A stretch of 64,000 bases of DNA, from contig JAAOMT010000690.1 of the NCBI GenBank assembly GCA_016748015.1, forward strand, positions 204,220 through 268,219, given 5' to 3'. The stretch's first letter is position 1. Every line of letters begins with the position of its first letter. The stretch is from Geosiphon pyriformis. Lineage: Eukaryota > Glomeromycota > Glomeromycetes > Archaeosporales > Geosiphonaceae. A model generated the notes under the pieces. It was not told the origin of the DNA and did not search any database. It saw only the letters and a program-made list of their open reading frames with translations. A program made the position numbers and the translations under genes. Positions 3,204 through 54,830 of this stretch are shown here, in pieces.

Positions 3204-3819
3204 ATGTCTTGTTCAGCCATGCATAACGGGAAATCAACTCTAGGTGGTAAAGAAGCGCTCATGTGTATGTATTAAACAAACATATTTTGTTTACCAAGTA
3301 AATTAGCTGTTTGATTATTTAATTTGCTTACCTAATTTCTATTTTTATATTGCGAATAAAGCTTTTACTGCGGGATCATGTGATTCGGTTCTTCAATGCA
3401 CTCAACGATCATTCAAAAATGCATCATTGCCAAACCTTCTTCACTTTATAAAAGATATCACCATAAAATCCAAAGTGTCTAAAATGACAATGGTCGTCGG
3501 TTTAATCTACGTCCACCGTCTCAAGAAAACCTTGCCATCTACAGCTCGAGGAGATTTTGATACACCGTACAGGATCTTTTTATCCGCTATCCTAGTCGCC
3601 AGTAAATATCTGAGCGATCACTCACTTCAAAATCGAAACATGGCCCATATTACGGGTGGTCTTTATACCGTGAAAGATGTAAACACGATGGAAAGAAGTT
3701 TTCTGGGTTTATTGAAATACAATCTTTGGGTCGACGTTGAAGAAGTTAAAATGTTTTTAGAAAAACACCGAGTTGAACTTGACATTGATGTTGAATGGAG
3801 CCATGATCAAGATGCGTAA
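3204..3819 (+). CDS. Pho85-type (PCL-like) cyclin, two exons
   Basis: Predicted cyclin of 172 aa, expected to bind and activate a Pho85/CDK5-like kinase. Exon 1 is 3204-3264 and exon 2 is 3362-3819. The intron (3265-3361) starts GTATGT and ends AG, and the splice restores one frame through a split Ser codon. The cyclin box runs from about residue 55 to 160. It contains KMTMVVGLIYVHRLKK (from residue 61), an STARG segment, and RIFLSAILVASKYLSD with Arg91 and Lys102 at the usual cyclin-box positions. A second helix block follows around MERSFLGLLKYNLWVDVEEV. Organisation and length fit fungal Pcl1/Pcl2 or Pho80 cyclins rather than mitotic cyclins; which subtype is uncertain. The ATG at 3204 is the first in frame before the intron, and a second in-frame ATG lies five codons later. 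The protein is short and lacks N- or C-terminal extensions. Confidence 0.87.
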
Positions 3820-20677: not shown

Positions 20678-21930
20678 CTACTCTTCATTAGTCAAAGCCT
20701 TGGCAAAATAAAATGAAAGACCTAATTGAGGCTTCGTCGTTAAATGTACTCCATCCCAATATAAATAATCTTCAGGATTATTACATGCAGGAACCTTTGG
20801 CCTTGCAGCACGATTTAAACAAGCGCTTTCAAATTCCGTGATCCCACCGTACTTTTCGGCGGCAGTGGTATTAGTGACAAATTTGTTATAATCGGCTGTA
20901 TATACTTTAACGTCAGGATTGGTACTTTTGAAATCAGTAATGGCATTTTCTAAAAATTCATTCTGTTTCAAATAGATTTGGAAAAATGTGTCAGCGAGTT
21001 CTGGCCTCCCAAGTTTAAACGCGGGAGTTGCTGATAGGTTAGGAACGGAAGGGACTAAGAAGTTTCGAACACCAATCTTGTAAAGAGTCGACCAAGTTTT
21101 GGCGATGCGTTGAACAACTTGTTCAGGTTCGGCAGTAAAATTGGTATAAAGGTAATCAGTTAAAATTGGCCCCCATGACTAATTGATATAGGTGTTAGTG
21201 CCAAATTATAAATTTGATGTCATGGGAATAGATAAAAACAAAAGCAAGTTACTCACCACAACCAATGTCTTATTTAAATCATCCCCAGGTTTAACAGTTT
21301 CTTTATAACTATCAACTTGCTGAGCAATACCAGGAATGTTAACTCGCGTCGAGTTTGTCTCGTCCGGAATATAACCTGTTTTCAACATTTAAAATTAATT
21401 AGCATTAAGCATTACACCGGAAAAAAGTGATTTAATAACTTATTCGATACCTTGAATAACGTCGCTACTATTCTCGTTCAAATTAAAATTAAAATTAAAA
21501 TGAAAGTAAGATTTTATTTCGCCGAAATAAATACTAGAATTTCCAACTTACTCTGTTGTTGCACCAATATAGGCGAAAATGTCAATCTCAGCACCTAAAA
21601 ATCCTCCAAGGTATTCTGCCCATATAGGACCATTCGATGGTCGCCCTTGATAGTCGGACTCAGTTAGGAAACCTGTTGGCGCAATTTTCGCTGCGTTTCC
21701 TGCGTCTATTAAAGTAAAGAAAAGAATTTAAAAGGATCAATTTTCTCACAGAAGTAATGAAATGAAAATAGGGTAAACAAAAACTTCTTTGAGAAAGATT
21801 TACCTGAAAAAGAGTCGCCAAAAACTACCAACTTATTGTACTTTTTCTTTAGTCCCGGATACGATTCGATCAACGAAACGAAGGCGAGTAACGAAAAGAT
21901 CAAGAAAATCAGATTAATTAGTTTCGACAT
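20678..21930 (-). CDS. Secreted GDSL/SGNH-family hydrolase, five exons, catalytic residues present
   Basis: Predicted extracellular lipase/esterase of the GDSL (SGNH) superfamily, 305 aa. Exons are 21930-21804, 21705-21552, 21467-21451 (17 nt), 21375-21257 and 21178-20678; all junctions are GT-AG and the frame is continuous. A signal peptide covers about residues 1-23. Block I is VFGDSFSDAGN with nucleophile Ser40. Block V is DGVH with Asp281 and His284 near the C-terminus. The segment matching block III (SWGPILTDY) lacks the usual Gly-x-Asn-Asp, so the oxyanion-hole Asn is not evident. Four Cys lie in the C-terminal third. Substrate is unknown; plant, fungal lipid or acetyl-polysaccharide esters are typical for the family. 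It is the likely active relative of the two GDSL genes at 40 and 54 kb. The ATG was chosen because it begins the signal peptide. Confidence 0.88.
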
Positions 21931-25908: not shown

Positions 25909-28900
25909 TTAAGACTCAAAATTATTGCCCCAACCCCAATGCTGCGGATGATTTTGAGAGGTTGGAGAATGATTGGAATGTGGTTGTGAAGAATGCTGTT
26001 CTTGATGTTGATTTTGATGATGCTGATTTTGATGATGCTGATGCTGATGCTGTTCATGATGCCTTTCTATAATGTCCTCGTCACTACTATGATCAATCAT
26101 TAAAGATCCTTCAGTAGGCGATGTAACAGGTGAAATAGGAGATATCATACCAGGTGCGTGGCTGTCGCTATTTAAAGTATTAATCCCTGGCATGTCCGTC
26201 ACGATACCCGTCATTCGCGTCATGTTATTCCTTAAATCTGAACCCGAGTTCACCATTTCTCCACTGTTTAAATATGTCCCATGTCCAAAATTCATTCCAA
26301 TATTCAATGATAAATTCGTGACTGATTTCGGTGGTGTTTTAGGTAGATAAAATTGCTTTTGTGCTTGAATTGTCGAGTAGGGTTGTTGAGGTTGTTGTAA
26401 TGGTGGATATTGTGGATAGGGCAAAACCATTGTGCCTGCTGAAGGATGGAACGAGAAATTTGAAGACGTTGGTGAAATTAATCGTGGCAATGATGTTTGC
26501 GTGGAAATTGGAGCTTGGGCAGCCCGAGTATTAATATCAGATGATGAATTAGAGGTAGAACTCAAAAATGGCATCATCATTGTATCATTTCCATGAGGAG
26601 GGTTCGTCAATTGGTTTGATGAATGATGATTCGTCTGTGATGGTTGAGCTGGTGGCCATGAAAAATGATAGCCAGGTGGCCAAGGGGTATGAAAAGAAAC
26701 TCCAGATCCAGAAGTTGGATTGTTTGATGTGGATGATGCATCAAACGACATGTCATTTTGCCGATGATTTTGTTGGGAAGAATGCTGTTGGGTTTGATAT
26801 TGCTGTTGATCACGATTAGATTGTTCTTGATACATTGGCATTTGATAGGCTGGAGCAGAAGAATTGTTACTTATATCTGTCGTATCTGAATTACTATCGT
26901 GGAAATTATGTTGCATTGGAACTGGGCGATTGATCGGCAAGAGCAAAGTTGGAGATGAAGTGAAAATTGGGTCTGCTTGCTCTTTATGATGTGGATTTGA
27001 TTGTAGCCAAGATTCAGAAATGCCCGTGTTACCTGGGACATTAATCTCAGGTGAATTCTGTTGCGCCGCAGCCTGTGCCAATAAATCTATTCCAGGTGGT
27101 GACGTTTGATCAGATGACATCCTCCCTTTTCTGCTATTGCCAATATCTAGTTGAGAATTTTTACCACGGTATGAGTCGCCACTCTGCAATTCAGTAAAAC
27201 GTGAGACATTTCGTGTCCCCGTGGTGGCTCTGCCAGTGGTGTCAGGATCAATCACACTACTTGACCCTATATCTATTACGTCTTTGTTTGTGGACGATGG
27301 ATTTATCATCCTATGAGATACCAATGCCAGAGCAGCATTGACAATATTAATTGTATGTTCATCATTATCATCCAAATGTGAACGTAATTGAGAAGCAAAA
27401 ATGGCAATCCAGTTCCTAATATCTGAACTTATAAAATGCAAGGATGGGACTGCCTCGAGAAGTTGAAACCATCGCATGGTTTGTAGCGTCTTTTCTTTGG
27501 CATTTCTATAGAGTTCCGATTCTTTAGCTTCCTCTCGAAGATTTTGGATATGAACATAACCAGCATATAATGCACAGTGTGCAATAAATTGATTACTACT
27601 GATAATAGAGACAAGATGTTCGTTGAGAAATTCAGCGATTCGATTAGCTGCTTCATTGCAAATGGATTTGCTTCTTTCAAAATGGATGTTTGGATGATGA
27701 ATTCTAATTGTCGTGTAATGATATAAAATGCACTGGTAAATTCGTAAATGTTCAATTGTCGTTTCTTGAGAAGCAATTTCGAAAGTACGAATGTTGTCCA
27801 ATTGAAGGAATGAAGGTAAATCATTTTTCCACTTATTCAATCGGTCTTCCAATCTCTTCATCGCAATATCCGAGCCATTTTCCGTGCCAAGGGTGAATTC
27901 CAGTATGTCGTACATTATTTTGGTAATTTTGAAATAGCTCAAGAAATATGCGGTGATCTTCATTTCATTATCATCAGCGTCTAACGCTGAATCCGATTTA
28001 GTTGTTAGTTCGATTGTACTATGCTTGTCTTCAAATACACTAAGCTGATTCAGAGATACGCATTGTAAATGATTCACGATATTTATCGCCCACCATAGCT
28101 ATCAATAGAAGGCAAATTTTGTTAATCATTTGAACTTTGAAAGTTTCGTGAATTACCCACAATGTTTTGAAAACCCACCTTGTTCCTTGCTTCCTTTTCC
28201 ATCTCCGAAAATCCTTCTGAAGCACTTTTATCATGCAATCGCATAGTTACGGCTAATGTTGTTGCCATTCCAACATACATTCGACTTTTGAGACTTCTTA
28301 ATGCGTCAAAAACTCCCAAAAGAAAGCATCCAGTTGCGGTGCTTAATCTGGGGATGTCAAAATTTTTTGTAATAAGGCCTGAAAATTTTGGCCTTTGGTT
28401 TTAATTTTCAAAAGAAAATAGAGTCATACGAAGAAAATTCCTTGATGCCATAGAAAAAATTCGAAATACCTTGAGCCTGTTCATAGAATCTTTGGCCAAC
28501 TGTGGTTGGGTCATTCGGGTTTTTTCGAACAACCGGGTCATCCGAGAATTTTGAGCCAATTGCACACACTGCACTCAGGAGCAAATCGTTCATTGGTTTA
28601 GTGGGATCCCCCAATCGTTGCAAAAAATAAGCTCTATGTAAAACCGGGAAGATTATGTGAAAATTTCGAAAGTATAGGCTAACTAAACTTTGGGTCAGCT
28701 GAGAGGATTGTGTTTCCACAGATCCGGACGGGGGCTGACGGGTCTCTTCTTTGGGTGGAATAATATATGGACTCAGTTCTTGTAAAATTATGCCTTCCTG
28801 CTGATTTGTCATTGAAGTCAAAAGTCCAACCGCGTAATCAAATTCACCCTTTTTAGAATCCACATTTGGCAGAATCTTGGGAACACGCCTTTTTAAGGGA

Positions 28901-29684
28901 GGAGTTTCTTGAGAATTTAATGTCGAAATTCCAAGAGTTGAAGTTGATACACTGGGAATCTTTAATTTTGGAGATGATTGTCGTTTGATGATGGATGAAC
29001 TTCCTTTTCTTCCAGACTGTGACGCCGTAGAAATTGAAGACTTTTTTCCTGCGGTGCCACTTGATCTTAAGAGACTCTGAGTATCAATATTGCTGTGACT
29101 ACGGGAGTGGGCTGAACTAGAACTTGAAGGTTGATTCCTTGAATTCACGTTTCTATTGCTATTCCTTGTATTTTGATTATAGGTGCATTCTAGTTGTACT
29201 GAAGTACAATAGGCGCAAGGAGTTTGTGCATAACCGTCTCCTTCACATCTTACCTTGATAAATGATATGGAAAGTAGTGAGTTAATAAAAAAAATATAAC
29301 TTGAAATTCTATCTTTGGATAATTTTGGACAAGATCCAAAAAATTTCTGTATTCATTGACTTTAAAATAATGTTTTTTCTACAGGAGACCACACAAAACA
29401 GAAAATAAAGTTTTCTAAAAATTTTACTGGTGGTCAAAGAACGAATTTTTTTTTTGATAATGCCAAGCAGTTTTAAATGAGCTATAACAGACAATTAAGT
29501 TTGCTTCTATCAAGATATTTTTCACTTGAACTTTTCATGGTTCAATGAATTTTTTTATATTATTAGTAAAAAATACCTTTCTTCTCCGGCAACGATCACA
29601 AGCGATTGTTTTGAGCTTTTTATCTTTGGGAGCAAGCTCATTAGATCCAGAGGGGGAATTTCTTTTTCCAGCTGGAGTAGTCAT
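25909..29684 (-). CDS. Zn2Cys6 transcription factor with fungal-specific regulatory domain
   Basis: Nuclear DNA-binding regulator of 1096 aa. Exons are 29684-29577, 29253-28430, 28347-28179 and 28098-25909; each junction is GT-AG and keeps the frame. The binuclear zinc cluster is C29-x2-C32-x6-C39-x9-C49-x2-C52-x6-C59 and includes CDRCRRRKVRCEGD. The 323-nt first intron splits it between Lys36 and Val37. A Ser-rich basic linker follows. The fungal-specific transcription factor domain (Fungal_trans type) runs from about residue 222 to 480, with hallmarks YFRNFHIIFPVLHRAYFLQR, a GMATTLAVTMRLH segment and NKLWWAINIVN. The last 500 or so residues are low complexity (Ser, Asn, Gln, Pro), with a His/Gln tract just before the C-terminal HWGWGNNFES. 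Such tails usually act as activation or interaction regions. Family members control metabolism, stress and drug responses; targets cannot be inferred here. No divergent partner gene sits upstream. Confidence 0.92.
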
Positions 29685-39700: not shown

Positions 39701-40274
39701 GATTATTTATATGATAAACACTTTATTTTATGAAAATTTATGTACATGTCTTTTAAGTAAAATTTTAACCAAAACTTTTTATTTTTAATTAAGTTTATAA
39801 TTATCATGTGGAATATTCAGTAATTTTTTGAAATATTTGTATCAATTACAAATATTTTAATGTTGTATTGATTCCTAATATTTGAGCAACTAAATTCAAA
39901 AAAAATTTAAGTTGAATTATGTTATACAAGCACATTTACACAAAAAGATTTATTATCATCATTTCTATTGTTTTTGAGAGCCCTGCTTTGTAGCAAAAAA
40001 TACTAAAGAGTTTAAAAAATTGATAATAAAGGCACGACCTTTTCTTATAGAATTGAGCAATTTTATTTATTTTCAAAAATTAATAATTTCCGGTCTGCAA
40101 GATTTTAATTTTAATGTGCTGACATTCTCTAATGAAATCAAGTTACATTATAAAAATTTTTCGCCATCAGATGAATAAATTTGGTTAGGTAACCTTATTA
40201 AAAAATTATAAGAAAATGCTAATGAATAGGTACTCATATAAAATTAGCAGGGCAAAAATAGTAAATAGATAATC
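36714..40274. other. AT-rich intergenic DNA
   Basis: No gene supported. The segment 36716-36845 is less AT-rich and directly follows the Sel1 fragment, so it may be part of the same decayed gene, but it is not readable. From about 40020 to 40270 the sequence is homologous to 53290-53556, as the shared 3' flank of the duplicated GDSL genes. Confidence 0.55.
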
Positions 40275-41493
40275 CTATTGAGCTAAAGCTTTGAGAAAAA
40301 CAAAGGCGAGACCAAGGTGAACTTTTGTAGTTAAATTTAAGGGATCCCAAAAGAAGTATTCTTCAGGATTAGAGCAAGGTTTCGCCGATTTGTCTATAAG
40401 ATTATTCAAACAGGCATCTTTTGTATTTGTGATACCAGCATACTGCTCTAAGGCCGTTGTATTCCTCTGGTATTTATTAAAATCGGCTGTGTAGATCGTG
40501 GCATCAGGATATTTTGTCGTAAAACTGGCGATGGAATTTTTCAGGGCTTCATTATGTTTAAGGTAAATTTCGAACAATATTGGTTTTAAATCCTCAAAAT
40601 ACAATTCAACGGCAGGAAAGAGAGAGAAATCCGGAAGACTTGGTACAAGGATATTTCGGACTCCGATTTCGTATAAGCTAACCCAGATTTTAGAAAGTCT
40701 TTCTACAACTTCCTCAGGCACTGCCATAAAGTTAGAGAATCTATAATCTGCTCCACCAAGCCATGTCTATAAGAAAGGAAAACCCTTAGATTTAATGATA
40801 ACTTTCTCTGATATTGCTTAATATTCATCTGTTAAAAAAGAAAATAACTCACAACTACTAAGGTTTTATTTGAATCAATCCCAGATTTTGACGTATCTTT
40901 GTATAATTCGAATTGTTGCCTGAGCCCTGGTACCTCAAATTTCGTTCCGTTCACTTCGAGAAAACCTATCCAAATAGATGCATACAAATTGTTATTGGTT
41001 ATAAAAACTCTTAAATTCAAATAGAAAATTTAGAATTTTAAATTTATTTAATTACCTTGAATCACTTCATTGCTTTGGTTTAATAAAAGCCAAGTTTAAC
41101 GAATTTGTTTAAAAATTTTATCAATAAAGATCGATCTCTTTCTTATTACATACTCTGAAGGTGCCGCAGCATAAGCAAAATCTTTAATCTCCGCGCCTAA
41201 AAAACTAGCAAGATATTCTGGCCACACTAGACCATTTGAAAAACGGCCTTGGTAGTAATCATCGGTAAGAAGGTCAGGTCCTGCCAGCTTGTAAGAATTT
41301 CCATTATCTAAAACAATAGATTATTTCCTCAATTTGTTTACTAGGATGAGACTTTTTCATTTCCACACTCACCTGAAACTACATCACCGAATACTACCAG
41401 CTTATTAAATTTTTTTTTTAACGCAGGAAAGCCATCTGTCAATGAGGCACAAGCGAAAAGGGATATGAATAATGCAAAAAAGTATTGATTCAT
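40275..41493 (-). CDS. GDSL-family secreted protein lacking catalytic Ser and His, five exons (copy A)
   Basis: Predicted secreted protein of 298 aa with an SGNH-hydrolase fold. Exons are 41493-41373, 41307-41154, 41072-41056 (17 nt), 40965-40853 and 40766-40275, all GT-AG with an unbroken frame. Signal peptide at about residues 1-21. Block I reads VFGDVVSGDNGN, with Val38 where the nucleophilic Ser belongs. Block V reads WDPLNLTT: Asp276 is kept but Asn279 replaces His. The block III region is WLGGADY and lacks the usual Asn before Asp. A nearby His285 is Gln in the intact relative at 20.7 kb, so it is an unlikely substitute. Cys positions in the C-terminal third are conserved. On present evidence it is catalytically dead, perhaps with a binding or decoy role, though a changed mechanism is possible. 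It is a close paralogue of the gene at 53.6 kb. The ATG begins the signal peptide. Confidence 0.86.
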
Positions 41494-41553
41494 GATGATA
41501 ATTCGAAATAAACTTTGAATTTTGATATAGTTTCTCTCTTTAAGCACCGAGAG

Positions 41554-41563
41554 ATTTTATATA
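41554..41563 (-). promoter_or_regulatory. TATA box of GDSL copy A
   Basis: TATATAAAAT on the minus strand, roughly 60-70 nt upstream of the ATG. A matching TATATAAAT lies at the same relative place before copy B at 54831-54839, so this core promoter element survived the duplication. Confidence 0.5.
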
Positions 41564-42441
41564 ATTCTGGTAAAATTTCTTATGGTCATAATAAGTGTTA
41601 TCAGGTCAAAATATATGTGTTTTATCAAAATCTTTCATTTGTTTTAATGAAGAAAATATTGTTGTCCTATATCGTACTAGCTTGTCGAAAGACTCGTAAT
41701 TTCAACAAACAACATTCAATGATAGATCGAAATGTTTTAATGATATTAAAAGTTAATCTGATAAAACAAAATGTTGGATTTGAAATCAAAATCACCTTCA
41801 ATAATAATAATTGGAACGACTTATCAATAATTTATTTGCCCACGAGTTAGATGTTATCTCTTAAATATTGAAGCCTTTTATGGTGTATTTTTTACAACAA
41901 ATCAAAAAATTAATTGAATCTGAAGCTAAGATTTATCTGTCTTTGTTGCCAAATAATTCTCTGTCAAATTAACCTATTGATTTAAAGTATAAGACTTTTC
42001 TTTGTCAATTAATAAGCGATTTCTCTGCTGAAATAACTTAAATCTCGATCAAAATTTGATTTTCTAATACGTAGAGTTTCAATTTGATATGAAACAAATA
42101 TTGAGCGACAAGATTAAGCTAATATTTATACGAACAAAAACCAATTAGACGGAATTTTTTCGATATAAAAACATTCCAACTTGAAGATCGGGTGACCAAA
42201 AAATATCAAGTATAAATCTTCCGGATTGCAGCTATTGATCAAATTATCTTTATATGGCAGTATGAAATAGAAATGTGTATTTGTAATTGCATGTCTCTCA
42301 TTAAATGCCTTCCAAATGAAGGATTCCAGTTAATAAAGCTAAAATATTAAATCAATAAATTATATATTGAGTTAACTTTCGTTAAACCGAAGATAAATAA
42401 TTCGAAGATTATTTTAATAATTAGCCACTATAATTGATCAT

Positions 42442-42473
42442 TTAATCCGAAGATCAGTAAAACTTCGGATTAA
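42442..42473. repeat. 11-bp inverted repeat beside the transposase relic
   Basis: TTAATCCGAAG and its reverse complement CTTCGGATTAA are separated by 10 nt. More CGAAG motifs lie at 42390-42412. They could be terminal or subterminal repeats of a DNA transposon that includes the adjacent Tigger-like relic. Confidence 0.6.
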
Positions 42474-42534
42474 AGTGCCAAAATAAAAGCTTTTTGCCCT
42501 CAACAGAGTCAATACTTATGATAAACAAAACATC

Positions 42535-42960
42535 TATAGCTCCTCTCGACATTATGGATTTAATTACTATATTGTGCAATCTTGGAATTCTGTCAACTCT
42601 GGTTCAATTTGTAAAAAACAGAAATTTTACATTTAGTGAATATTCTCTTATTTGATGATAATACTATAGATAAATCATCAGATATAAAAAAATGATGCAA
42701 CATATAATTAATCAACTTACAATTGATAATCTTTATTTGGTAAAGAATATTTTGAATTTGATTCTACTTTACGAATCAAAGTCATGAAAAAATCATTAAA
42801 TTTGTTGATGGTGTAAAAGATCCTGAAAATTTAAAAGAAATTAAAGAAGTTAAAAATGTTGTAAATTTAACACAAAATGAGGCAATTATTGGTTTTGCAT
42901 TGTACTTACAGATATTAAAAAAGAAAATTGTGATGAAACAGTAAAACACTTTCTAGTTTC
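42535..42960 (+). pseudogene. Possible Tigger/pogo (CENP-B-like) transposase relic
   Basis: Short segments in different frames resemble the C-terminal part of CENP-B-type DDE transposases: LDIMDLI, then IVQSWNSVNSGSICKKQ, then an acidic/Asn-rich tail. The Trp-Asn-Ser block with the following basic residues is the best match to the family's AWxxVxxxTIxxCW region. Frameshifts and stops break the sequence, and no catalytic core is visible. The assignment is tentative. Confidence 0.35.
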
Positions 42961-45900
42961 AAAGTCAATAACTTGAAAAACAGATAAATGAATTAATTTC
43001 TTAATTGTAATAATTTTATATTTTGAATTGGTTAAATTTGTTAAATTTGATTAGTATTAATATATATTTTTAACTATTCTCTTTTTCTTATGTATACTTT
43101 TTTGGTAAATAAAACTTAGGGTAAAATTTTCTTATTAGCAATTTGCTAAACTTTATTTTTTACACATTAATAATTTTGATTTTAAACAATAAAAAATTGT
43201 TTTCACAATAATTATATACAAAATATTATAAGATGTAGATTACAAAAATATCCAAATTATTATAAACTTTCAATAGCTAAATTTTATTGGTTATAATTAT
43301 TGCAAAAAATATGTTTAGCTTATTTTTTTGTAAGAATTTAAACATTTGAATGTTAAGTTTTTATTTTTTCTAATAATTAATTAGATTTATCAATAAAATT
43401 TTCAGGTCTTGAATTCAATTTATTAATTTCAATAAAGTCATCGATTTTAAAGTTATTAGATTTCACCCAAAGAAAATAATTTTCAAAATAATTTTTGTTT
43501 TTCTTAATTATAATTCACGCCAAAAAATTTGTTTGGTTCAAATAATAATCGTTTAAAATTTGTTTTAAATCTAGAACTGAATCTTGTTTTTCAGCTTAGT
43601 TCTTATCAAAATTGACATTGCCTGTTGTTATTTTTATGTTATCTAATTTTATGACTTTGTTTGACAAAATTGTTTTTTTTATTATACGACAATTTTTCAT
43701 TAGATCTGAAATTTTTCACATGTTTAATTCTATTTTATTGATTCTGTTTTCTTGACAATTGAGTTTTTATATTTCTATTTTGTTTAGTATTAAAATCAAT
43801 TTGTTTTTATGTTTTATATTTTCTGAATTTAGAGCTGTTGAATTTTATGAAAGCTATTATTATTTTTGCCAATGAATATAACCAAGTTCATTTTGACTTA
43901 AGCATTTAAGTTTTATTCAAAGCATTAAAACATAAAATAATACTACTAGCTGTTGGAATAATTTTATAAGTTTTTGTTTATATTTTAAAATCTAGCTTGT
44001 AAACAAATCAAATATATTTAAATCTAAAAATAATGCCTAATAGATTACAACCAATGTGATACTCAAATACAACTCCGAACCATATAGCTAGAACTGATAT
44101 AATAATTATTTTTATGTTACCAATTCCTTTTTTATTTAAAACTAACAAATTGAAATTGAACCAAAAATTAGTATAAATTTTATTTTTGATTCATTTTATT
44201 ATTTATAACCCCATTTGCAATGATTAGATCATGTATCATTTTAAGCTTTTAAGCAATTTAAAATTTACTAAAATTTGAATAGTTTTGAAAATGACTTTTT
44301 TAACAAAACTTTAATAAAACAGTTAAAATATATGAAATTAAAAATTTAACTAAAAATTCCTGAAAAATGAATTGCTTTCTTAAAGTATTTAACATTTAAA
44401 TTGCAAATAGGTTTAAATATTTAGTATTAGCACTATATTAAATTTGCTAAAACAATTAATAGAAAAAGTTTTATTATATAATTTTCAAAAATTATTGTCA
44501 CAGATTAAACGATAAGTTAAATAATAACCGAAATTAAAAACAACATTTTTATGGGTCAAAGTAACACAATAATAGATAGCAAAAGAGAACAAATATTGTA
44601 TGATAAGAAAACAAACAAAAAGAAAATTTATTTTTATAATTAAATTGAATTTGTAGGAATTTAATATGCAAAATTAGTCACAATTACTATCTTTTTCAAA
44701 AGAAACAAGAGAATCTGAAGGTAAAAAGATAGTCAGTACTTTTAATAAAAGATAATACAGCTGCTATAATTTTATATTTTATGTTAATGCTTTTAGAATT
44801 AAAATAACAGATATTATTTGTATTTTTTAGTAATATATTTCATAAAAGTTAAAAATATACAAATTAAAAGGAAAAAAGAGAAAAAATAATAATTAAAATT
44901 ATATTGAAATTGTTGCATTAATTTTTTAACTAATTAAATGATTCAAATAAGAACTTTTTTCTACAGTTTTACTTATATATTTTTTAAAAAAGACTAATAA
45001 TTAGATTGGTAATTATATTAACAATTAATTTTTAAATAAAGTAACTAATGTATGTAAATAAATATAATTAAATATTTAATAAAACTAAAAATTCAATTTT
45101 AACATAATTTTTTCCAAAAAGATCAAAGCTTTGGGAAAAAATTTACTAAGAAAAATTTTAGGTTATTTATTTTAAAACTAATTTACTGAAGCTTTTGCTA
45201 ACAAAATATATAATAACTGTGGTAATATAAGTTTTAAATTCATAAAACCAAATTTTTATATAGGCATTTTGACTTTTTTTGTAATAATTAAGACTTTTGA
45301 GACATTTAATTATATAATATTTAAGATTTTCATCTGAATTTTTAAAGTTATTTTCTTTAAAAGATTTATATCATTAATGATTTTACCAAGTCATTCATAT
45401 TATTAAAGTTGTTTTTCATATAGCAAGTTTTTATTAATAAGTAAAACTTTTTAATTATTCTTCTAATTGTGGTAAAAAGAAAAAATATTTTAGCAGTCAT
45501 GTATTTAAGCTGTTTAATTGAGTTTTCGTTTTTATTAATAGATATTGCAAATTTTAATATGTTCTGTTATGTTTTTTTAAGATTGTTCAATAGTATTATG
45601 CTAATGTTTTATTAAAAAGTCAGTGTATATATTGTATATTACAATTTTTTCCGAATTAAAATATTTTTAATATGATTTGTTTTAACAAATTAAAATAGAA
45701 ATTTGATTATTTCACAAATTTTCTCTTTGCTGCTAGTTATATTTTATTAAATATGGTCTTTTACTCAAAAATTTGATACAGTACTAAATAGTTTTTCAAG
45801 TTAATTATTATGTATAGTTAAAAGTAAATAAATTGGTTAATTGGTTAAAGTTTTTTAATTACTGAATAGCTAATTAAAATAGAGAATTTGCATTTCAATT

Positions 45901-47479
45901 GCTCATTTTTTTAATATTTAAGTTTATAATCATATTTATCTAGTTGGAAAATTTAGCAGCCAATTTATTAATATTCAAGCCTTTTTTTGTTGCATAATTA
46001 GACCAGAGCTTGATAACTTATTATCACTGTAAAATAAACACCTAAAAAATATTGGTTTTAATAATTTGTAAACTAAACTACAGAAAAGCACTCTTGTTTA
46101 ATGACTTTATATAATTTATCAACTATGAACATATTTTTGCTTACTAATTTAAAACAGTAATAACAGTATCATATTTTTTATAAACACAAACTTGTGTTTT
46201 CTGGCAAAGTAAAAAACAAAACTTATTAAAAATTTTGATTATTACTGTTAATAAAAATAAAGCTTTTTGGAATTTTTTGCTAAATTTTTGCTATTGTTAA
46301 AATTTTTTTAGAAAAACAAACTTTTCTGGTTTGATATTGTAAATATTAAAGTTTTTTAATCTTTTTCATTATTTTAATTATGTATTAACTATAATTTTAC
46401 ATATTCAGTCATTTATTTTTAAATTAGTTGCTAGTATAATTGATAATTTGATTGTTTACTTAATTAATCAAACTTTTTTACCTTTTTTATTTTTTATTTT
46501 CTTGAATTGTATTTAGTAGAATTAATTTTGAATTTGTTATTTTATTTATTAAATAAATAACTATTAAACATAATTAGTATTCTGTTGTTGAATTTTAAAA
46601 ATACCAACTAAAATGTAAAATATCGTAACTGTATTATTTTTTATTTATTAAAATTTACAATGTACAATTAATTTTATTAAAACAATTAAACAGATATTTA
46701 CATATAAGCAAATATTTTATATGAAAATTTAAAAAATTAAAATTATGAATTATTATAATTTAAAAAATATTATTATATATTGTTCATAATAATTAATTAG
46801 TAATATTACCAATTAACTAATTTAAAGACTCAATATTATATTATTTACAAAGAAATATAAAATAAATAAAATAATAATATAATCAAATAAATCAAGATTT
46901 TTAATTTTTGAATTAAATAATTGTGTACAAAAATCAATAAAGTTTATAATAATAAAAATTTGAGAGAGAGAGAGAGAGAGAGAGTTTAAAATAAAATTTT
47001 GTAATTTTGAAAAAACTTTTTAGCAATACATTGGTTTTTTATAATAAAGTAAAATTATAAATTCAAAAAATTATGTCAATATTGTTCTAATTTGCTTTAT
47101 ATTTTGATTTTTCAAATTAAAATATTATATATTTTAACATGATGCTTTATACAATTTGGTGAAGAGTACCGAATAGTATTATAATATTGAGTTAGTTAGT
47201 TCAATGTCCTAATTTGAAATAGGAAAAAAGAATTGTTTTAATGAAAACAAAATTTATCAAGAATAGCCTAAAAAAATACATTAAAAGCATATATTATAAA
47301 TTTTTGAGCTTATCTAAAGAGTTAATGTCATTATTAAAATATAAACATATTAATTATTTAATTTGAGTAAATAAAACCAATATAATAATTTATTTTAATA
47401 AAAATTAGTCGTGATATTTAAAAATATAATAATATTAATATTTTGGTAATTTACTGTAAAGGCGTGCATAGCCTGCAAT

Positions 47480-49440
47480 ATGTTTTAATGGATCTGAATT
47501 CCTTTCCCAGCTTTTTTATACCATTTAACTGCTTTTGAAAGATCTTTAGTCACACCCATTTTCATAGCAGATTGCAAGATCATATTGTGTCTTTGAATGT
47601 CCTTTTTCCGTTGCCTTAATATACCATTCAACCGCTTTGGTGAGATTCTTCGTCACTCCATCTCCATCTTCATTATATTGTGGGTCGGAATTGCCTTTCT
47701 CCACTGCTTTAGTATACCATTCAACTGCTTTCTCGAGATTTTTGGTTGCTCCCTCTCCATTTATATAGCAAACTCTAAGATTAAACTCTGCATCAGAATT
47801 TTCTTTCTCTGCTGCTTTGGTATACTATTCAACTGGTTTGATGAGGTATTTGATCACTCCATGACCATTTTTATAGCAAACTCCAAACTAAATTGTGCAT
47901 CTCAATGTCCTTTTTCTGCTGCTTTAGTATACTATTCGACTACTTTTGCAGGATACTTAGCAACTCCGTTTCCATTATTATAGTAATAAGCAAGACAACA
48001 TTCCCCTGCTTTAATATACCATTCAATGGTCTTTTTATCATTTTTTTTAGTACCGATACCATCTATATAACATTGCCCGAGAAAAAGTTGGCCCAAAAAG
48101 TTTTTTGATCAGGGGTTTCTTGATATTTTATAAAGCCCTGCCTAACGTTGATACATAAATTCCAATTCCAAATTGGTAAAAAAAGCCATGCAAAAAAGCT
48201 GAATTAGATGAGGTTTGGTTAAAATTAATAGAATTGAAAAGATCTGCCCAATGTTTATAGATTTTCTTCTAACTGAGGAATCATTTTTGATATATCCCGA
48301 GGTTTATAATCGTTAAATGTTTTCTAAAAGAGCCTTGATGGTTGGATCAGTAAAATCCATATATTTTCCTAGAGTGTTTTCATTCGTTAACTATAGTGTT
48401 AATCCAGCATGATCTTTTTGAAAATTAGAAGCAGGCTTCAAATTCCATTGAATTTCCTTTAGTTGTCGTTTATGGCCGTTTCTCAGGTAACTGATCCCAA
48501 CGCTCTTTATACAACATTATATATTCAATTGGTGTATTTTCGATAGGAATTTCTCTTTTACCAGCAATAATTTGTGCTAAAAATTTGAAGTATAATTTGT
48601 AAATAAAATTCTCATAAAATTGTGCTTAGATTCAATTTTCTTCACTGACTAAACCCAGGATTTCGCTGAGATTTCTTGGAAGGCCAAGATTGGATATTTT
48701 TATTGTTCTGTTGTGGGATAAACATTTTAGGAATTCTAAAAATAAATTTTTTAGTAATAGATCAAATGTTAAAATACTTTTTGAAACTTTAAAGCATCGA
48801 ACCTACAAGATCTCAATGAATGATTTGGTTTTCATGCAGACATTGAATTCCCCTTGCCAATTCCTGTGCCATCCGTAGCTTTTCTATTCTATTCATATTC
48901 TGAAACTCTAATTATAGATAATTACGCAAAGAACTTCCATTGGCGTATTCAAAAATTATAATATATTTTATAGTATTATCTATTACAAGTTTATATAGAA
49001 AAGTTAGCGTTTTCTAATATAAATTTTCATAAACTTTGAGAATAAATACCTCTATGGTTTTGCTAAGACAATAAAATCTCAAAATATTTGGAAAAAATGT
49101 ATATCTCGCAGGAATTGCATCTAATAGTTTTCGGCAATGTTTTAGCATAAATAATATAGCAATTTAAATTCAAATCTTTTTTATAAGCTCTTCTATTTCG
49201 GTTTTATCGTCTTGTGTGACTCGTTTGAAATTTTTCAATGCAAATATAATATCCATACCACCTTTAGTATACTCCGCCTTCTCTACCACTCTGGAAGCTC
49301 CATCACCAAGCTGTTTTTTGCTATGAAATTATTGTATCCAAAATATTTGATCTGTTTGTCACGAACAGAGGTTTCAAACCATTCGGCGACTGATATTGGT
49401 AACGTTGGCATTTTTAGTAAAGGTAACTTGGCATCGTTTT
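47480..49440 (-). pseudogene. Protein kinase with C-terminal Sel1 repeats, degraded
   Basis: Minus-strand fragments in order form a kinase-Sel1 gene of a type expanded in Glomeromycotina. The N-lobe is near 49310-49200, with glycine loop LGDGASRVVEKAE and ALKNF holding the ATP-binding Lys. The catalytic loop is near 48835 (CLHENQIIH-stop-DL), where HRD is broken by a TGA at the Arg codon. The activation segment near 48715 has SNLG in place of DFG. The C-lobe end is near 48560-48480 (AGKREIPIENTPIEYIMLYK and RWDQLPEKRP). At least five Sel1 units follow between 48070 and 47480 (for example KTIEWYIKAGE, YTKAAEKGH), with TAG replacing Trp in one. Several frameshifts separate the parts. It cannot encode an active kinase; the remaining similarity suggests the inactivation is fairly recent. 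Confidence 0.75.
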
Positions 49441-51390
49441 TTAATGAAATGCTTGTGAATGTCTAAGACATCTGACAATTTTAAATATTTGAAAGTCTCA
49501 TTTTTGTATAGTAAGATGCAGCAATCACAGGAAAACTTGTTAATATAAAATATAAAATAAATTATTATTTTTGAGTTTATTTTAAGCAAATTTGATATTT
49601 TATTAAAGAAAATCATACCTAATTTTATAGTTGCTTTTGACAACAACATATTTTTAGTCTTTTGAAACATTGAGGTTGTTTTGGTTAACAAAATGATATC
49701 ACTTTTATTATTTGGGAAATATTCTTAAAATTTAAAAAACGATTACTGCAAACCAATATAATAGCAATTACAAATATTAAATTTTCAATTGTTAAAATAC
49801 TTTCAAATTTTTTCAGCCACATGGTTTTTCAAAAAAAAATAGCAAACAAAGCTGTTGGAAGAATTAACTTGTTGGTTTTCTACCATTTCAAATAAAAATA
49901 ATAAATTTCTTACCATTTAATTTAAAAAAGTTTAAAAGTTTAATTTTAATATTCAAATAAAAAATAAAACTAAAACAATGCATCTAAAATTCTGGTAAAA
50001 TTATAACCAAATATTCCAAAAACAAAAAATTTAAAATCAACTTTTTTCACTTTTTTGTTTTAAAAGATAGTTTTATTCTGAATAGAACTAAAGATAATTA
50101 ATAAATACATTCAAAACCCATAATTTTACTTTTGGTTTCTACCTTAGTTTTCACTATTTATTTTTAAGTGGCCGCTATATTTTTTGTTGCTTAAACTCAA
50201 AATCTAAATAAACAATTAAATATAATATTAGTCCAAGCTGTTTATGAAAACCAAAAATCTTGAAAACTCAATATATGTTTTAATATAATCATCAATATTA
50301 ACATCTTTTTGATTTTAAACCACAAAATTGTAATAATATTTTTATTTTCACCTTATCCTAAATTTTTTGGATATAAAACTGTTAACTACAACCTTCTGGT
50401 CATAAACCTTTTTATTTATTCTATAAAAAATGGCGACCTTACCAATAAAAATAAAGATTAAAACAATATTTTCAAAAAATATTCTGCACAAAGACTTCAT
50501 ACTATTTTTGATTATTTAAAAATGTCTAGATATTTGCTTTTAAAATCTTAATATTAGTGATTTAATACTTAAATAGCATTTTGATAAAAATAATATTTAT
50601 GAAAACAAATTTTTTAGTCATTGAAAAAACTATTTATAATTTACAAAGTTTTAAACAACAGTTTATATATTTTTGAAAATTAATATAAAATATTTTTTGA
50701 TAATTATTTTGTTAATAGAACATTTTATTTTGCAATTAAGATATTTATTTTACTATTTTAATCATGTTTTAACCATCAACTTTGTATATTTAGCCTTTCA
50801 TATTTAGAATTAATTATTGACTTGATTATTGACTTGATTATTAATCTAATCTTTAAATCTAATTAATAACTTCCATTGTTGATCTGATTGTTAACCAAAT
50901 TGTTGACTTATTTATTAACTTGGTTATTCATTTTTTTTATTAAACATATAAACAAAATTTTTTAAAGCTATAGAAATGTATTTGGCAATAATCAAATAGT
51001 TTTTTATCTTTGAATCTGAATATTTCTTTAATCAAATTTATATTGTTCTTAAATACTTTTTTCTGCCATTCATTAACATGTTACTTGATAAAATTATAAT
51101 ATAGTATAAAAATATATCAAGATATTACAATCTATAATGTAAATCAAAATTATTAATGATTAATTAATTGAAAAAAATAATAATGTGATTAAAAAATGAT
51201 ATTAATATACTTAGAAAAATAATTTTAAAAGACTCAATTCATGAAGGCCAAGTATTCCGGGGCAGTTAGCTATTCCAAACAGCTGGATTGTCAAAAACTA
51301 AATAAAAAACCATGAAACTTTTGACCTAAAAAGCCATTGGAATCTGTTGGAGGTTTTCTGTACCCAAAGATTCGTCCAAAGGGAAAATTT
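49441..51390. other. AT-rich DNA without a supported gene
   Basis: A minus-strand frame at 49374-49691 overlaps the start of the kinase relic but shows no domain itself. Imperfect short tandem units of the kind TTATTGACTTGA occur at 50815-50930. A less AT-rich block at 51236-51400 looks like decayed coding DNA adjoining the GDSL relic, but it cannot be read in one frame. Confidence 0.5.
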
Positions 51391-51412
51391 CCGGATGCCT
51401 TTATAAAAAGTT

Positions 51413-51492
51413 TAAGCGAAATCTTCAACCTCTGCATCTAAGAGACCTCAAAAGTATAAGCCAGATGCAAAATAGGCAAAATTGTTAGTATC
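51413..51492 (-). pseudogene. Relic of GDSL exon 2
   Basis: The minus strand reads DTNNFAYFA, then SGLYF-stop-GLLDAEVEDFA. This parallels exon 2 of the GDSL genes (DTGNAYKLA ... PEYLGTFLGAEIKDFA). The nucleotide alignment with copies A and B over about 50 bases is clear, with many transitions. A stretch of about 20 codons between the two parts is missing and one codon is a stop. Neighbouring exons were not identified. It indicates that a further GDSL copy once lay beside copy B. Confidence 0.55.
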
Positions 51493-51690
51493 GCTAGCCT
51501 ATAAAAACATTTTCATTTAAAGATTTCTTTATACGATAAACCATTTCTTTCATACTACCAGAATTCGATTATATCATCCTCTCAAATATATTTTTAGCAA
51601 TCTCGATATTCTTGAGAAATAACATTTTTTCAATCAATAAAATATCAAAGCACGTTTACTTCAAGCCGTGATGAATAAAATCTATGAATA

Positions 51691-51950
51691 CAGTGTGTTG
51701 CAAAAAAATTGGAGAAAAATGCACATCACAAAACTTGATACAGTTTATCCAATTTTAGTTCTTGCACAATGTTACCTTCCAAGCAAGAAACACAGCGCCA
51801 AACCGTATAATATTTTTGGAATGAAGGGATACGAGACGCAACTGAAATAAAACAGCGAACAAATATACCACACTCTACTATCTATAATATCCTTAAAAAA
51901 CTCGAAAAAATAGGTAGAGCGTTGGTATAAAGGCCAGAGACAAACTCGTG
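51691..51950 (+). mobile_element. Truncated Tc1/mariner copy (5' end)
   Basis: Begins at a TA dinucleotide with CAGTGTGTTGCAAAAAAATT and carries the start of the same transposase as the main element, in the opposite orientation. Over about 150 bases the two copies differ only at scattered transitions. Compared with the main copy it lacks about 100 nt just inside the terminal repeat. Similarity fades near 51945, where the main element's left end begins. The fragment and main copy form a long inverted pair. Confidence 0.75.
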
Positions 51951-51953
51951 CTA

Positions 51954-53205
51954 CAGTGTGTTGCAAAAAAAATTGGACAGAAAAAAATAATCACTGTGCT
52001 TTATCCAATGCACCAAAAGGTATAAATTATATAACATTAGAAAGCTAAAAAGCACATGATTTTATTAAAAAAAAATTAGTATGATATTCTTTCCCCTTAT
52101 TCCCAATTATCATCTCATAACGGTGTTTCATTGATCCCACTAACCCAATTAGGGTAGATCGGGGAATATTTCGCCACTCTTCCTTCATAAACTGCTCTAA
52201 TTCATCCCGATTTTTGGGCATACGCTTCTCCCATTCCTTTTCACAATAGCCCATAAGTTTTCAATGGGATTCAAGTCAGAACTATTAGATCGCCAAGCTA
52301 TAACTTCAGGCATATTCTCTTGAAGAAAGGCTTTGGCTAAATGGCTTGTGTGTTTTGGGTCATTGTCCTGTTGAAACTGCCACTCATTTCCTAACATTCC
52401 TCTTATCTCAGGTAAATGTTCACGAATAATCTCTACATAGAACTTAGCATCCATTATTTGGGTAAAACAAAATAAAATTACCTTTTCTTTCTAATAAAAA
52501 CCACCCCATGCCATAATTTTTGTTCGATCTTTTGGTATAGCACGAGTTGGTCGCTGGCTTTTATACAAACGTTCTACTGTATTTCGGAATAGACAAAAAG
52601 CTGTTTCATCCGAAAAAACAGTTTTTTCCAATTATTATTGAGATGTTCTTGAGCCCACTTTACACGATCTTCCTTGTGGAGATTGGTGAGCATTGGAGTT
52701 GCCAAAGACAAGTCTTTTTTATATCCATGATTAATTAATTGCCTTTGGATAGTACTAGGAGAAACGTCTACATTCTTTTTTGCTAATTTTATTTTCAAAG
52801 TCCTCAAAGATATTGAAGAATCTCGACAGAGGTATTGTCCTAATGTTCGTGATGTATCTTTAATTTTTCGCGGCCGACCATTTCCACCCGCATGCTCCAC
52901 CATTCCTGTTTTTTCGAGTTTTTTAAGGATATTATAGATAGTAGAGCGTGGTATATTTGTTCGCTATTTTATTTCAGTTGCGTCCCGTATCCCTTCATTC
53001 CAAAAATATTATACGATTTGGCGCTGTGTTTCTTGCTTGGAAGGTAGCATTGTGCAAGAAAATTTCTAAAAAAATTATTAGTAAAACGCGCGAAAAAATT
53101 TATCATATTTAGCCACTTATCTTAACATTCACTTCTTAATTCAACCGCCACAAGCTAACTAAAATTGGATAAACTGTATCAAGTTTTGTGATGTGCATTT
53201 TTCTC
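51954..53205 (-). mobile_element. Tc1/mariner-type transposon, inactive
   Basis: The left end follows a TA and reads CAGTGTGTTGCAAAAAAA. The right end carries the inverted motif up to ATGTGCATTTTTCTC, but the outermost 20 or so bases are missing or diverged. The size (about 1.25 kb) and a single transposase frame on the minus strand are typical. The right-end repeat TGTATCAAGTTTTGTGATG pairs with the left end of the truncated copy at 51.7 kb. Confidence 0.8.
52045..53050 (-). pseudogene. Tc1-like DD34E transposase pseudogene
   Basis: About 335 codons in all, the usual Tc1 length. In order: an N-terminal helix-turn-helix region (IPRSTIYNILKKLEK), a GNGRPRK basic hook, and a second HTH block (VSPSTIQRQLINHGYK). 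The first catalytic Asp lies in SDETAF. The second Asp is in FQQDNDPKHTS and the Glu in SSDLNPIENLW, with 34 residues between them (DD34E). Two in-frame stops sit near the N-terminus (one TAG is CAG in the truncated copy at 51.8 kb). A frameshift precedes SDETAF, and more breaks follow MAWGGFY. It is not translatable as one protein, so any movement would have needed transposase from elsewhere. Confidence 0.85.
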
Positions 53206-53556
53206 AAAATAAAAACGTACCATTTAAATTAAACCTAAAATATTTTGTGAAACCTACTTTTTAAAATTGGCTTTACAATTTTGCAACAAAGGAGACTAAA
53301 GAGTTTAGAAATGATGAAAAAAATGCGTGATCCTTTTTATATAAATGTAGCTATCTTATTTTCTTTTCAACGATTAAATGGTTTTCGGTCCGCAAGATTT
53401 TCCTTTTAATATGCTGAGATTCTATAATGAAATCAAGTTGCATTATACAAAATTTTAGCTATCAGACGAATAGATTTAGTTATATAATCTTATTAAAAAA
53501 TCAAAAGAAATGTAATACATATAAAATTAGCAGGTAAACATAGTAATTAGATATTT

Positions 53557-54779
53557 CTATTGATCTAAAGCTTCGAGAAAAACAAAGGCAAGACCGAGGT
53601 GGGCTTTTGTAGTTAAACTGATTGGATCCCAAAAAAAGTAGTCTTCAGGATTAGAGCAAGGTTTCGCCGATTTGTCTATAAAATTATTAAAACAGGCATC
53701 TTTTGTATTTGTGATACCAGCGTACTTCTCCAAGCTAGCTGTATTGCTCTGGTATTTATTGAAATCGGCCGTGTAGATTGTGGCGTCTGGATATTTCGTC
53801 GTAAAACTGGCGATTGAATTTTTCAGAGCTTCATTATGTCTGAGATAATATTCAACCCATGATTGTTTTACGTCTTTATAAAATAATTCGACGAAAGGAA
53901 AAAGGGAGAAATCCGGAAGACTTGATACAAGGATATTTCGAACTCCGATTTCGTATAAGCTAACCCAGATTTTATAAAGTCTCTCTATAACATCCTCAGG
54001 CACTACCGTAAAGTTAGAGTATAAAAAATCTGCTCCATTGGGCCATGTCTATAAGAAAGGAAAAACCATATATTTGATGACAACTTTGTCCGACATTTTT
54101 AATATTCATCTCTTAAATAACAAAGGAAAACGACTCACAGCTACTAAGGTTTTATTTGAAGCAATCACAGATTTCAGTGTATCTTTGTATAATTCGACTT
54201 GTTGCTTGAGGCCTGGTACGAAAATTTTCGTTCCGTTCACTTCGAGAAAACCTATCCAAATAGATGCATACAAATTCTTATTGGTTATAAAAACTCTTAA
54301 ATTTAAATAGAAAATTTAGAATTTAGAATTTATTTAATTACCTTGAATCACTTCATTGCTTTGGTTTAATAAAAGCCAAGTTTAACTAATTGGTTAAAAA
54401 AATTTTTCAATAAAGATCGATCTCTTTCTTATTACATACTCTGTGGGTGCTTCAGAATACGCAAAGTCCTTAATCTCCGCGCCTAAAAAAGTACCAAGAT
54501 ATTCTGGCCACATTAGACCATTTGAATAATGGCCTTGGTAGTAATCGTCAGTAAGAAGATCAGGTCCTGCCAACTTGTAGGCATTTCCAGTATCTAGAAC
54601 AATAAGCATTTACTCATTTTATCTACTAGGATACGACTTTTCTGATTTTCACACTTACCTGAAAATATATCACCAAATACGACCAGCTTATTAAATTTTT
54701 TTTTTAACCCAGGAAAGCCATCTATCAACGAGGCAAAAAACAAAAGGGATATGAAAAATGCTAAAAAGTATTGATTCAT
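53557..54779 (-). CDS. GDSL-family secreted protein lacking catalytic Ser and His, five exons (copy B)
   Basis: Predicted secreted 298-aa paralogue of the gene at 40.3 kb with an identical exon plan: 54779-54659, 54593-54440, 54358-54342 (17 nt), 54251-54139 and 54048-53557. Exon lengths equal those of copy A in every exon. Signal peptide at about residues 1-21. Block I is VFGDIFSGDTGN, with Ile38 at the Ser position. Block V is WDPISLTT, with Asp276 kept and Ser279 in place of His. The block III region is WPNGADF. The full frame and splice sites are intact, so the protein is probably made although the classical triad is gone. The two copies share the loss but carry different residues at both sites. 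Copy B lies between a dead Tc1 element and Tc1 relics. Confidence 0.86.
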
Positions 54780-54830
54780 GATGAAATTTTGGAATTTTTT
54801 TATAAGGTTCTATTTATGAGTAACGAGACA

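Follow-up and report, generated by a model that had tools for sequence, protein, structure and literature searches.

Within a 64,000-nt stretch of the Geosiphon pyriformis genome (contig JAAOMT010000690.1, positions 204,220 to 268,219; here called the window), two minus-strand genes, A and B, encode predicted secreted proteins of the SGNH/GDSL hydrolase family. Gene A (window 40275 to 41493; exons 41493-41373, 41307-41154, 41072-41056, 40965-40853, and 40766-40275) and gene B (window 53557 to 54779; exons 54779-54659, 54593-54440, 54358-54342, 54251-54139, and 54048-53557) gave spliced models that match in exon lengths (121/154/17/113/492 nt), have GT-AG introns, and run to 298 codons in each case. 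These models reproduced exactly the outer coordinates and the intact five-exon frames proposed in an earlier annotation made from the DNA letters (the sequence-only reading). A diverged relative, gene C, lies on the minus strand at window 20678 to 21930 (exons 21930-21804, 21705-21552, 21467-21451, 21375-21257, and 21178-20678), with five exons as in A and B (127/154/17/119/501 nt) and 305 codons. The 17-nt microexon was found in 13 of the 16 family models placed in the tree described below.

Family membership was evident from the PF00657 profile, which scored A, B, and C at 45.3, 34.2, and 50.9 bits, respectively, against a gathering cutoff of 23.6. The nearest solved sequences by PDB sequence search were PlaA, the Vibrio thermolabile hemolysins/PlpA, and ChoE (phmmer E values of 1.5e-16 to PlaA and 3.1e-16 to 6jl1), hydrolases of the same family and motif order as A and B. 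Structure prediction covered exon 5 of A, with B and C as alignment rows, and gave a low-confidence model (mean predicted local distance difference test score of 56, below 50 in the last third); the first 38 Foldseek rows for this model were all SGNH proteins, none reaching an E value of 1e-3. A Cys pair (positions 254 and 266 in A) was invariant in 16 of 16 family models, bearing out the conserved cysteines noted earlier. The signal peptides noted at the same time correspond to hydrophobic leaders in A and B, and secretion is thus predicted from N-terminal hydrophobicity only.

At the catalytic positions, the block I Ser is replaced by Val38 in A and Ile38 in B, and the block V His of the DxxH motif by Asn279 in A and Ser279 in B, compared with Ser40 and His284 in C. 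These assignments agree with the sequence-only reading, which nevertheless understated the extent of loss: in the family alignment, the block II Gly position is Ala88 in A and Glu88 in B, and the block III Asn position is Ala141 in both. The S-G-N-H positions therefore read V-A-A-N in A and I-E-A-S in B, so that, unlike in the SGNH/GDSL hydrolases to which they are related, all four residues are replaced. Gene C, earlier singled out as the relative with Ser and His in place, does have both, together with Gly90, but itself lacks the block III Asn (Thr146); its positions read S-G-T-H, and those of two further relatives, E and F, read S-G-S-H. Asp276 of the DxxH motif and other motif residues are invariant across the six proteins A to F. 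In the alignment of A to chain 6jl1, V38 coincides with the Ser of GDS, A141 with the Asn of GLND, and D276 and N279 with the Asp and His of DVTH. By its structure title, 6jl1 is the G389D mutant of VvPlpA, so native VvPlpA lacks the Asp of DVTH; Ser153 and His393 are described as the catalytic pair and were mutated in the Vibrio parahaemolyticus homologue (PMC7434443). A Streptomyces SGNH lipase is reported to lose activity when Ser10, Asn82, or His216 is changed to Ala but to stay active with Ala at the Gly (PMC10779480). Since the Asn-to-Ala change inactivates that lipase, C, E, and F may also be impaired. At codon 279 of gene A (window 40335-40337), substitution of Asn for the block V His places an N-L-T glycosylation sequon where the active site used to be.

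Relatives were sought across the genome (124.7 Mb, 406 contigs) by four protein searches and the Pfam model, exon by exon, with counts taken as lower bounds. At least 19 family loci were detected, at least 11 of them on the window's contig; a weak match with stops at C399:372.6 kb (E = 0.03) was not counted. Sixteen loci were modeled for the tree, leaving out three broken or fragmentary ones (C399:374.5 kb, C399:385 kb, and C280); models other than A to F are less certain, several having no settled first exon. One locus outside the window, D (C399:279.5 kb), is an intact third copy that also lacks Ser and His, so that the pair described earlier is a trio. All four residues were present in 4 of the 16 models (C399:289.5k, C399:369.7k, C399:527.7k, and C366), and a fifth, C370, has the three that are visible. 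The block III Asn was absent in nine models (A to F, C399:284k, and both C393 genes), and in C264 an Asn lies one column away from that position. His was absent in six (A, B, D, C264, C393:582k, and C393:590k), five of which also lack Ser, the exception being C393:582k.

In the protein tree, A, B, and D clustered together with support of 98/95 using all columns and 89/88 after removal of the tetrad columns (for block II, the column removed was 89, one beside the Gly position at 88). Sister to this cluster were E and F, in which Ser and His are retained. The C393 and C264 genes formed a separate cluster (84/88 with all columns, 89/90 with the tetrad columns removed). Forcing the six His-less genes into a single origin was rejected by the approximately unbiased (AU) test (p-AU = 3.6e-52), and the Ser, His, and Asn positions each required two changes on the tree, whose forks deeper than these groups were not settled. 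Given these groupings, the AU rejection, and the two changes per residue, the most plausible reading is that A, B, and D share a single loss of Ser and His and that a further loss took place elsewhere in the genome. On this tree, His was lost independently at least twice, the second group comprising the three C393/C264 genes. True pseudogenes of the family also exist on the window's contig: the copy at C399:374.5 kb, next to its intact relative at 369.7 kb, carries stops and a disrupted frame, and another GDSL fragment lies at C399:385 kb. In the C280 gene (68.6 kb), block II seems to be missing, block I passing directly into the beginning of exon 5.

The ratio of nonsynonymous to synonymous divergence (dN/dS, or omega) between A and B had been named beforehand as a check on whether the copies evolve neutrally. 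By the Nei-Gojobori method (NG86) it was 0.42 (0.28 to 0.64), which is not neutral, with similar values for A-D (0.41), B-D (0.46), and E-F (0.38). In a five-gene codon likelihood model, omega was 0.466 on the A/B/D branches and 0.443 on E/F (difference, p = 0.86), and omega = 1 was rejected for A/B/D (likelihood ratio, 20.4; p = 6e-6). The branch joining A/B/D and E/F had an omega of 1.12, different from the rest (p = 0.04) yet indistinguishable from 1 (p = 0.79). For the A/B/D stem, omega ran to its bound when C served as outgroup, again with no significant difference from 1 (p = 0.47). Positive selection likewise found no support in the site models (M2a versus M1a, p = 0.29).

No premature stops or frameshifts occur in A, B, or D, and coding indels are absent between A and B and in-frame only in D. 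Neutral simulation at 0.065 (half the A-B intron divergence) gave about 3 stops per lineage, with a probability of none of 0.040 to 0.048; across rates of 0.05 to 0.13, 2.4 to 5.8 stops were expected (probability of none, 0.002 to 0.09). About 6 coding indels were expected under neutrality (probability of none, 0.002). Neutral decay would very probably have broken these frames, and the copy with stops at C399:374.5 kb shows that unselected copies do break. Genes A and B thus have neither the disabled frame nor the neutral evolution of a pseudogene; as in maintained pseudoenzymes, their catalytic residues are missing while the frame is intact and constrained.

The earlier proposal of a retained non-enzymatic role holds to this extent: intact frames and purifying selection after the loss of Ser and His point to a retained function that would not use the SGNH mechanism. 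We propose that A, B, and D are maintained secreted SGNH/GDSL pseudoenzymes that most likely bind without hydrolysis, a protein-protein role being the first choice; we regard this explanation, taken as a whole, as about evenly balanced between right and wrong. The starting point would have been a tandem family whose SGNH sequence resembled that of thermolabile hemolysin/PlaA. On the line to A through F, the oxyanion Asn of block III would have been lost first; Ser and His would have followed on the A/B/D line, and the block II Gly in A and B, with the leader, Cys pair, and core motifs remaining under selection. A binding role is suggested because the nucleophile, the base, and both oxyanion residues are gone from an otherwise constrained, apparently secreted protein, which could serve as a decoy for, or as a partner or regulator of, active secreted SGNH paralogues or their inhibitor. 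Such a partner is favored over a lipid ligand of the former pocket, given that residues there differ among A, B, and D (Ala, Glu, and Gly at position 88; Asn, Ser, and Gly at position 279) and that A carries the N-L-T sequon at 279. The preference is mild, since variable sites were not significantly enriched near the tetrad (8 of 23 versus 63 of 247 sites; p = 0.33), a result on which a released pocket was rejected.

That comparison is one of several observations that weigh against a maintained binding role. When C was added to the codon model, two ratios fitted as 0.45 on A/B/D and 0.23 on the other branches (log likelihood rising from -3528.16 to -3523.20, a gain of 4.96) and three as 0.46 on A/B/D, 0.44 on E/F, and 0.16 on the rest, estimates limited by the saturation of C (NG86 dS of 2.6 to 3.0 or undefined). 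Measured by intron divergence (K) rather than dS, constraint looks weaker (dN/K of 0.110/0.135 for A-B, 0.095/0.175 for A-D, 0.114/0.199 for B-D, and 0.074/0.118 for E-F). The uneven identity of the A and B introns (78% for intron 1, 94 to 96% for introns 2 and 3, and 85% for intron 4) makes gene conversion between the copies probable, and conversion could bias omega. Residues Ser40 and His285 remain, so the active site could have migrated.

Among the alternatives, non-hydrolytic lipid binding is a doubtful yet serious contender: the pocket would accept an acyl chain without cleaving it and carry or sequester host or fungal lipid extracellularly. Solved relatives in the fold-search rows hold fatty acids (PlaA with palmitate; Vibrio thermolabile hemolysin with lauric, oleic, arachidonic, and docosahexaenoic acids). 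In addition, the fatty acid synthase (FAS) domain PF08354 had no match in the genome while the Corynebacterium glutamicum control was positive, as expected of a fatty acid auxotroph, and arbuscular mycorrhizal fungi are described as such (PMC11426481, PMC4771724). However, FAS absence is read here from PF08354 as the single informative domain (PF17951 matched nowhere and carries no weight), and a pocket with Glu88 in B and a sequon at position 279 in A is not one that A, B, and D share. That the copies are instead still enzymes, with the chemistry taken over by other residues or with some other reaction for which the conserved Asp suffices, is improbable. The invariance of Asp276 and its companion motif residues in A to F would fit, and pseudoenzymes may have migrated catalytic residues according to a review (PMC10211241), but A and B lack nucleophile, base, and both oxyanion residues, and position 279 differs in each of the three copies.

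We judge equally improbable that A, B, and D are relaxed relics, recent duplicates on the way to becoming pseudogenes and still unbroken. Divergence between A and B is similar in exons and introns (86 to 89% identity in exons 1, 2, 4, and 5 and 100% in exon 3, versus 78 to 96%), and the internal branch omega of 1.12 would fit relaxation; even so, omega below 1 on the A/B/D branches and the survival of three of three frames disfavor neutral relics. Least probable by a wide distance from the first choice, a surface or wall protein might be seen by the plant as a pattern independently of catalysis. With their catalytic Ser mutated, two Botrytis SGNH proteins are reported still to induce resistance in plants, but their cell death activity did require Ser (PMC10919021), and a plant response gives the fungus no reason to retain the gene.

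GDSL pseudoenzymes are a known kind, since an essential motif is given as absent from 171 of 820 Pfam-annotated GDSL sequences in 12 plant proteomes (PMC4757993). Arabidopsis ERMO3/MVP1/GOLD36 (At1g54030) is a GDSL pseudoenzyme that resembles A and B, as predicted, in being an intact protein of the secretory pathway without its nucleophile (Ser to Gly) (PMC4757993, PMC3498303), and it is tied to protein complexes, to the PYK10 complex in one study and to TGG2 in an earlier study cited there (PMC3498303). It differs in being a plant protein that reaches the vacuole, with one essential mutation named versus four residues in A and B, and the portions of these papers drawn on here describe no tandem clade comparable to A/B/D. 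The paralogous decoy PsXLP1 and the inactive chitinase MpChi are, as is proposed for A and B, secreted, inactive relatives of active enzymes in plant-associated microbes, able to act as decoys or sequesterers (PMC8960721); they belong to glycoside hydrolase families and their roles come from binding experiments, whereas A and B are known from sequence. In a decoy arrangement of the PsXLP1 type, the candidate active paralogues would be the four models with all four residues. Within the open-access literature searched, where absence is not proven, we found no report of SGNH pseudoenzymes in mycorrhizal fungi or of a fungal tandem clade without all four SGNH residues. In Gigaspora rosea, one GDSL lipase-like protein is listed among up-regulated secreted proteins (PMC5293756).

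Genes A and B each lie in one copy of a duplicated block (window 40061 to 41509 and 53356 to 54795), about 13.28 kb apart and composed of four repeat pieces with 79 to 91% identity. At window 51759-53060, immediately downstream of gene B, a fragment of a Tc1/mariner-type transposase (PF01498) is flanked by inverted repeats of 156 nt (96% complementary); any connection to the duplication of A and B is guesswork. Between the blocks, at window 47581-47986, a 98-nt unit occurs in four tandem copies (spacing of 93 to 108 nt, 71 to 74% identity to the reference copy), possibly Sel1-like repeats on the minus strand. The window also holds a piece of a Zn2Cys6/Fungal_trans transcription factor (28408-29352) and a cyclin domain (3307-3819).

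Elsewhere in the genome, four Crinkler-domain matches were found, and the 18S rRNA gene on C320 is full length by Rfam, with one mismatch each, by eye, at the AML1 and AML2 sites; a search for exact matches to these primer sites found none. This gene gave a single pattern match, with a change in a near-universal 3' 18S motif. Together with the unmatched PF08354, the Crinkler matches and the 18S gene indicate a plant-associated lifestyle, though only indirectly, and are compatible with, but no proof of, an arbuscular mycorrhizal fungus or a near relative. One may imagine, as an unlikely elaboration, that in a fungus without FAS, tandem secreted SGNH lipases were disarmed stepwise (Asn, then Ser and His, then Gly) and more than once, yielding non-hydrolytic binders of plant lipid or blockers of a plant inhibitor at the symbiotic interface. 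If this host-interface reading were true, disarmed lipases would constitute a novel class of symbiosis proteins in a group reliant on lipid from plants. Regardless of that reading, one genome presents a graded series, from all four SGNH residues present, through Asn lost, to all four lost, that is useful for asking in what order enzyme chemistry is lost and what keeps the remainder.

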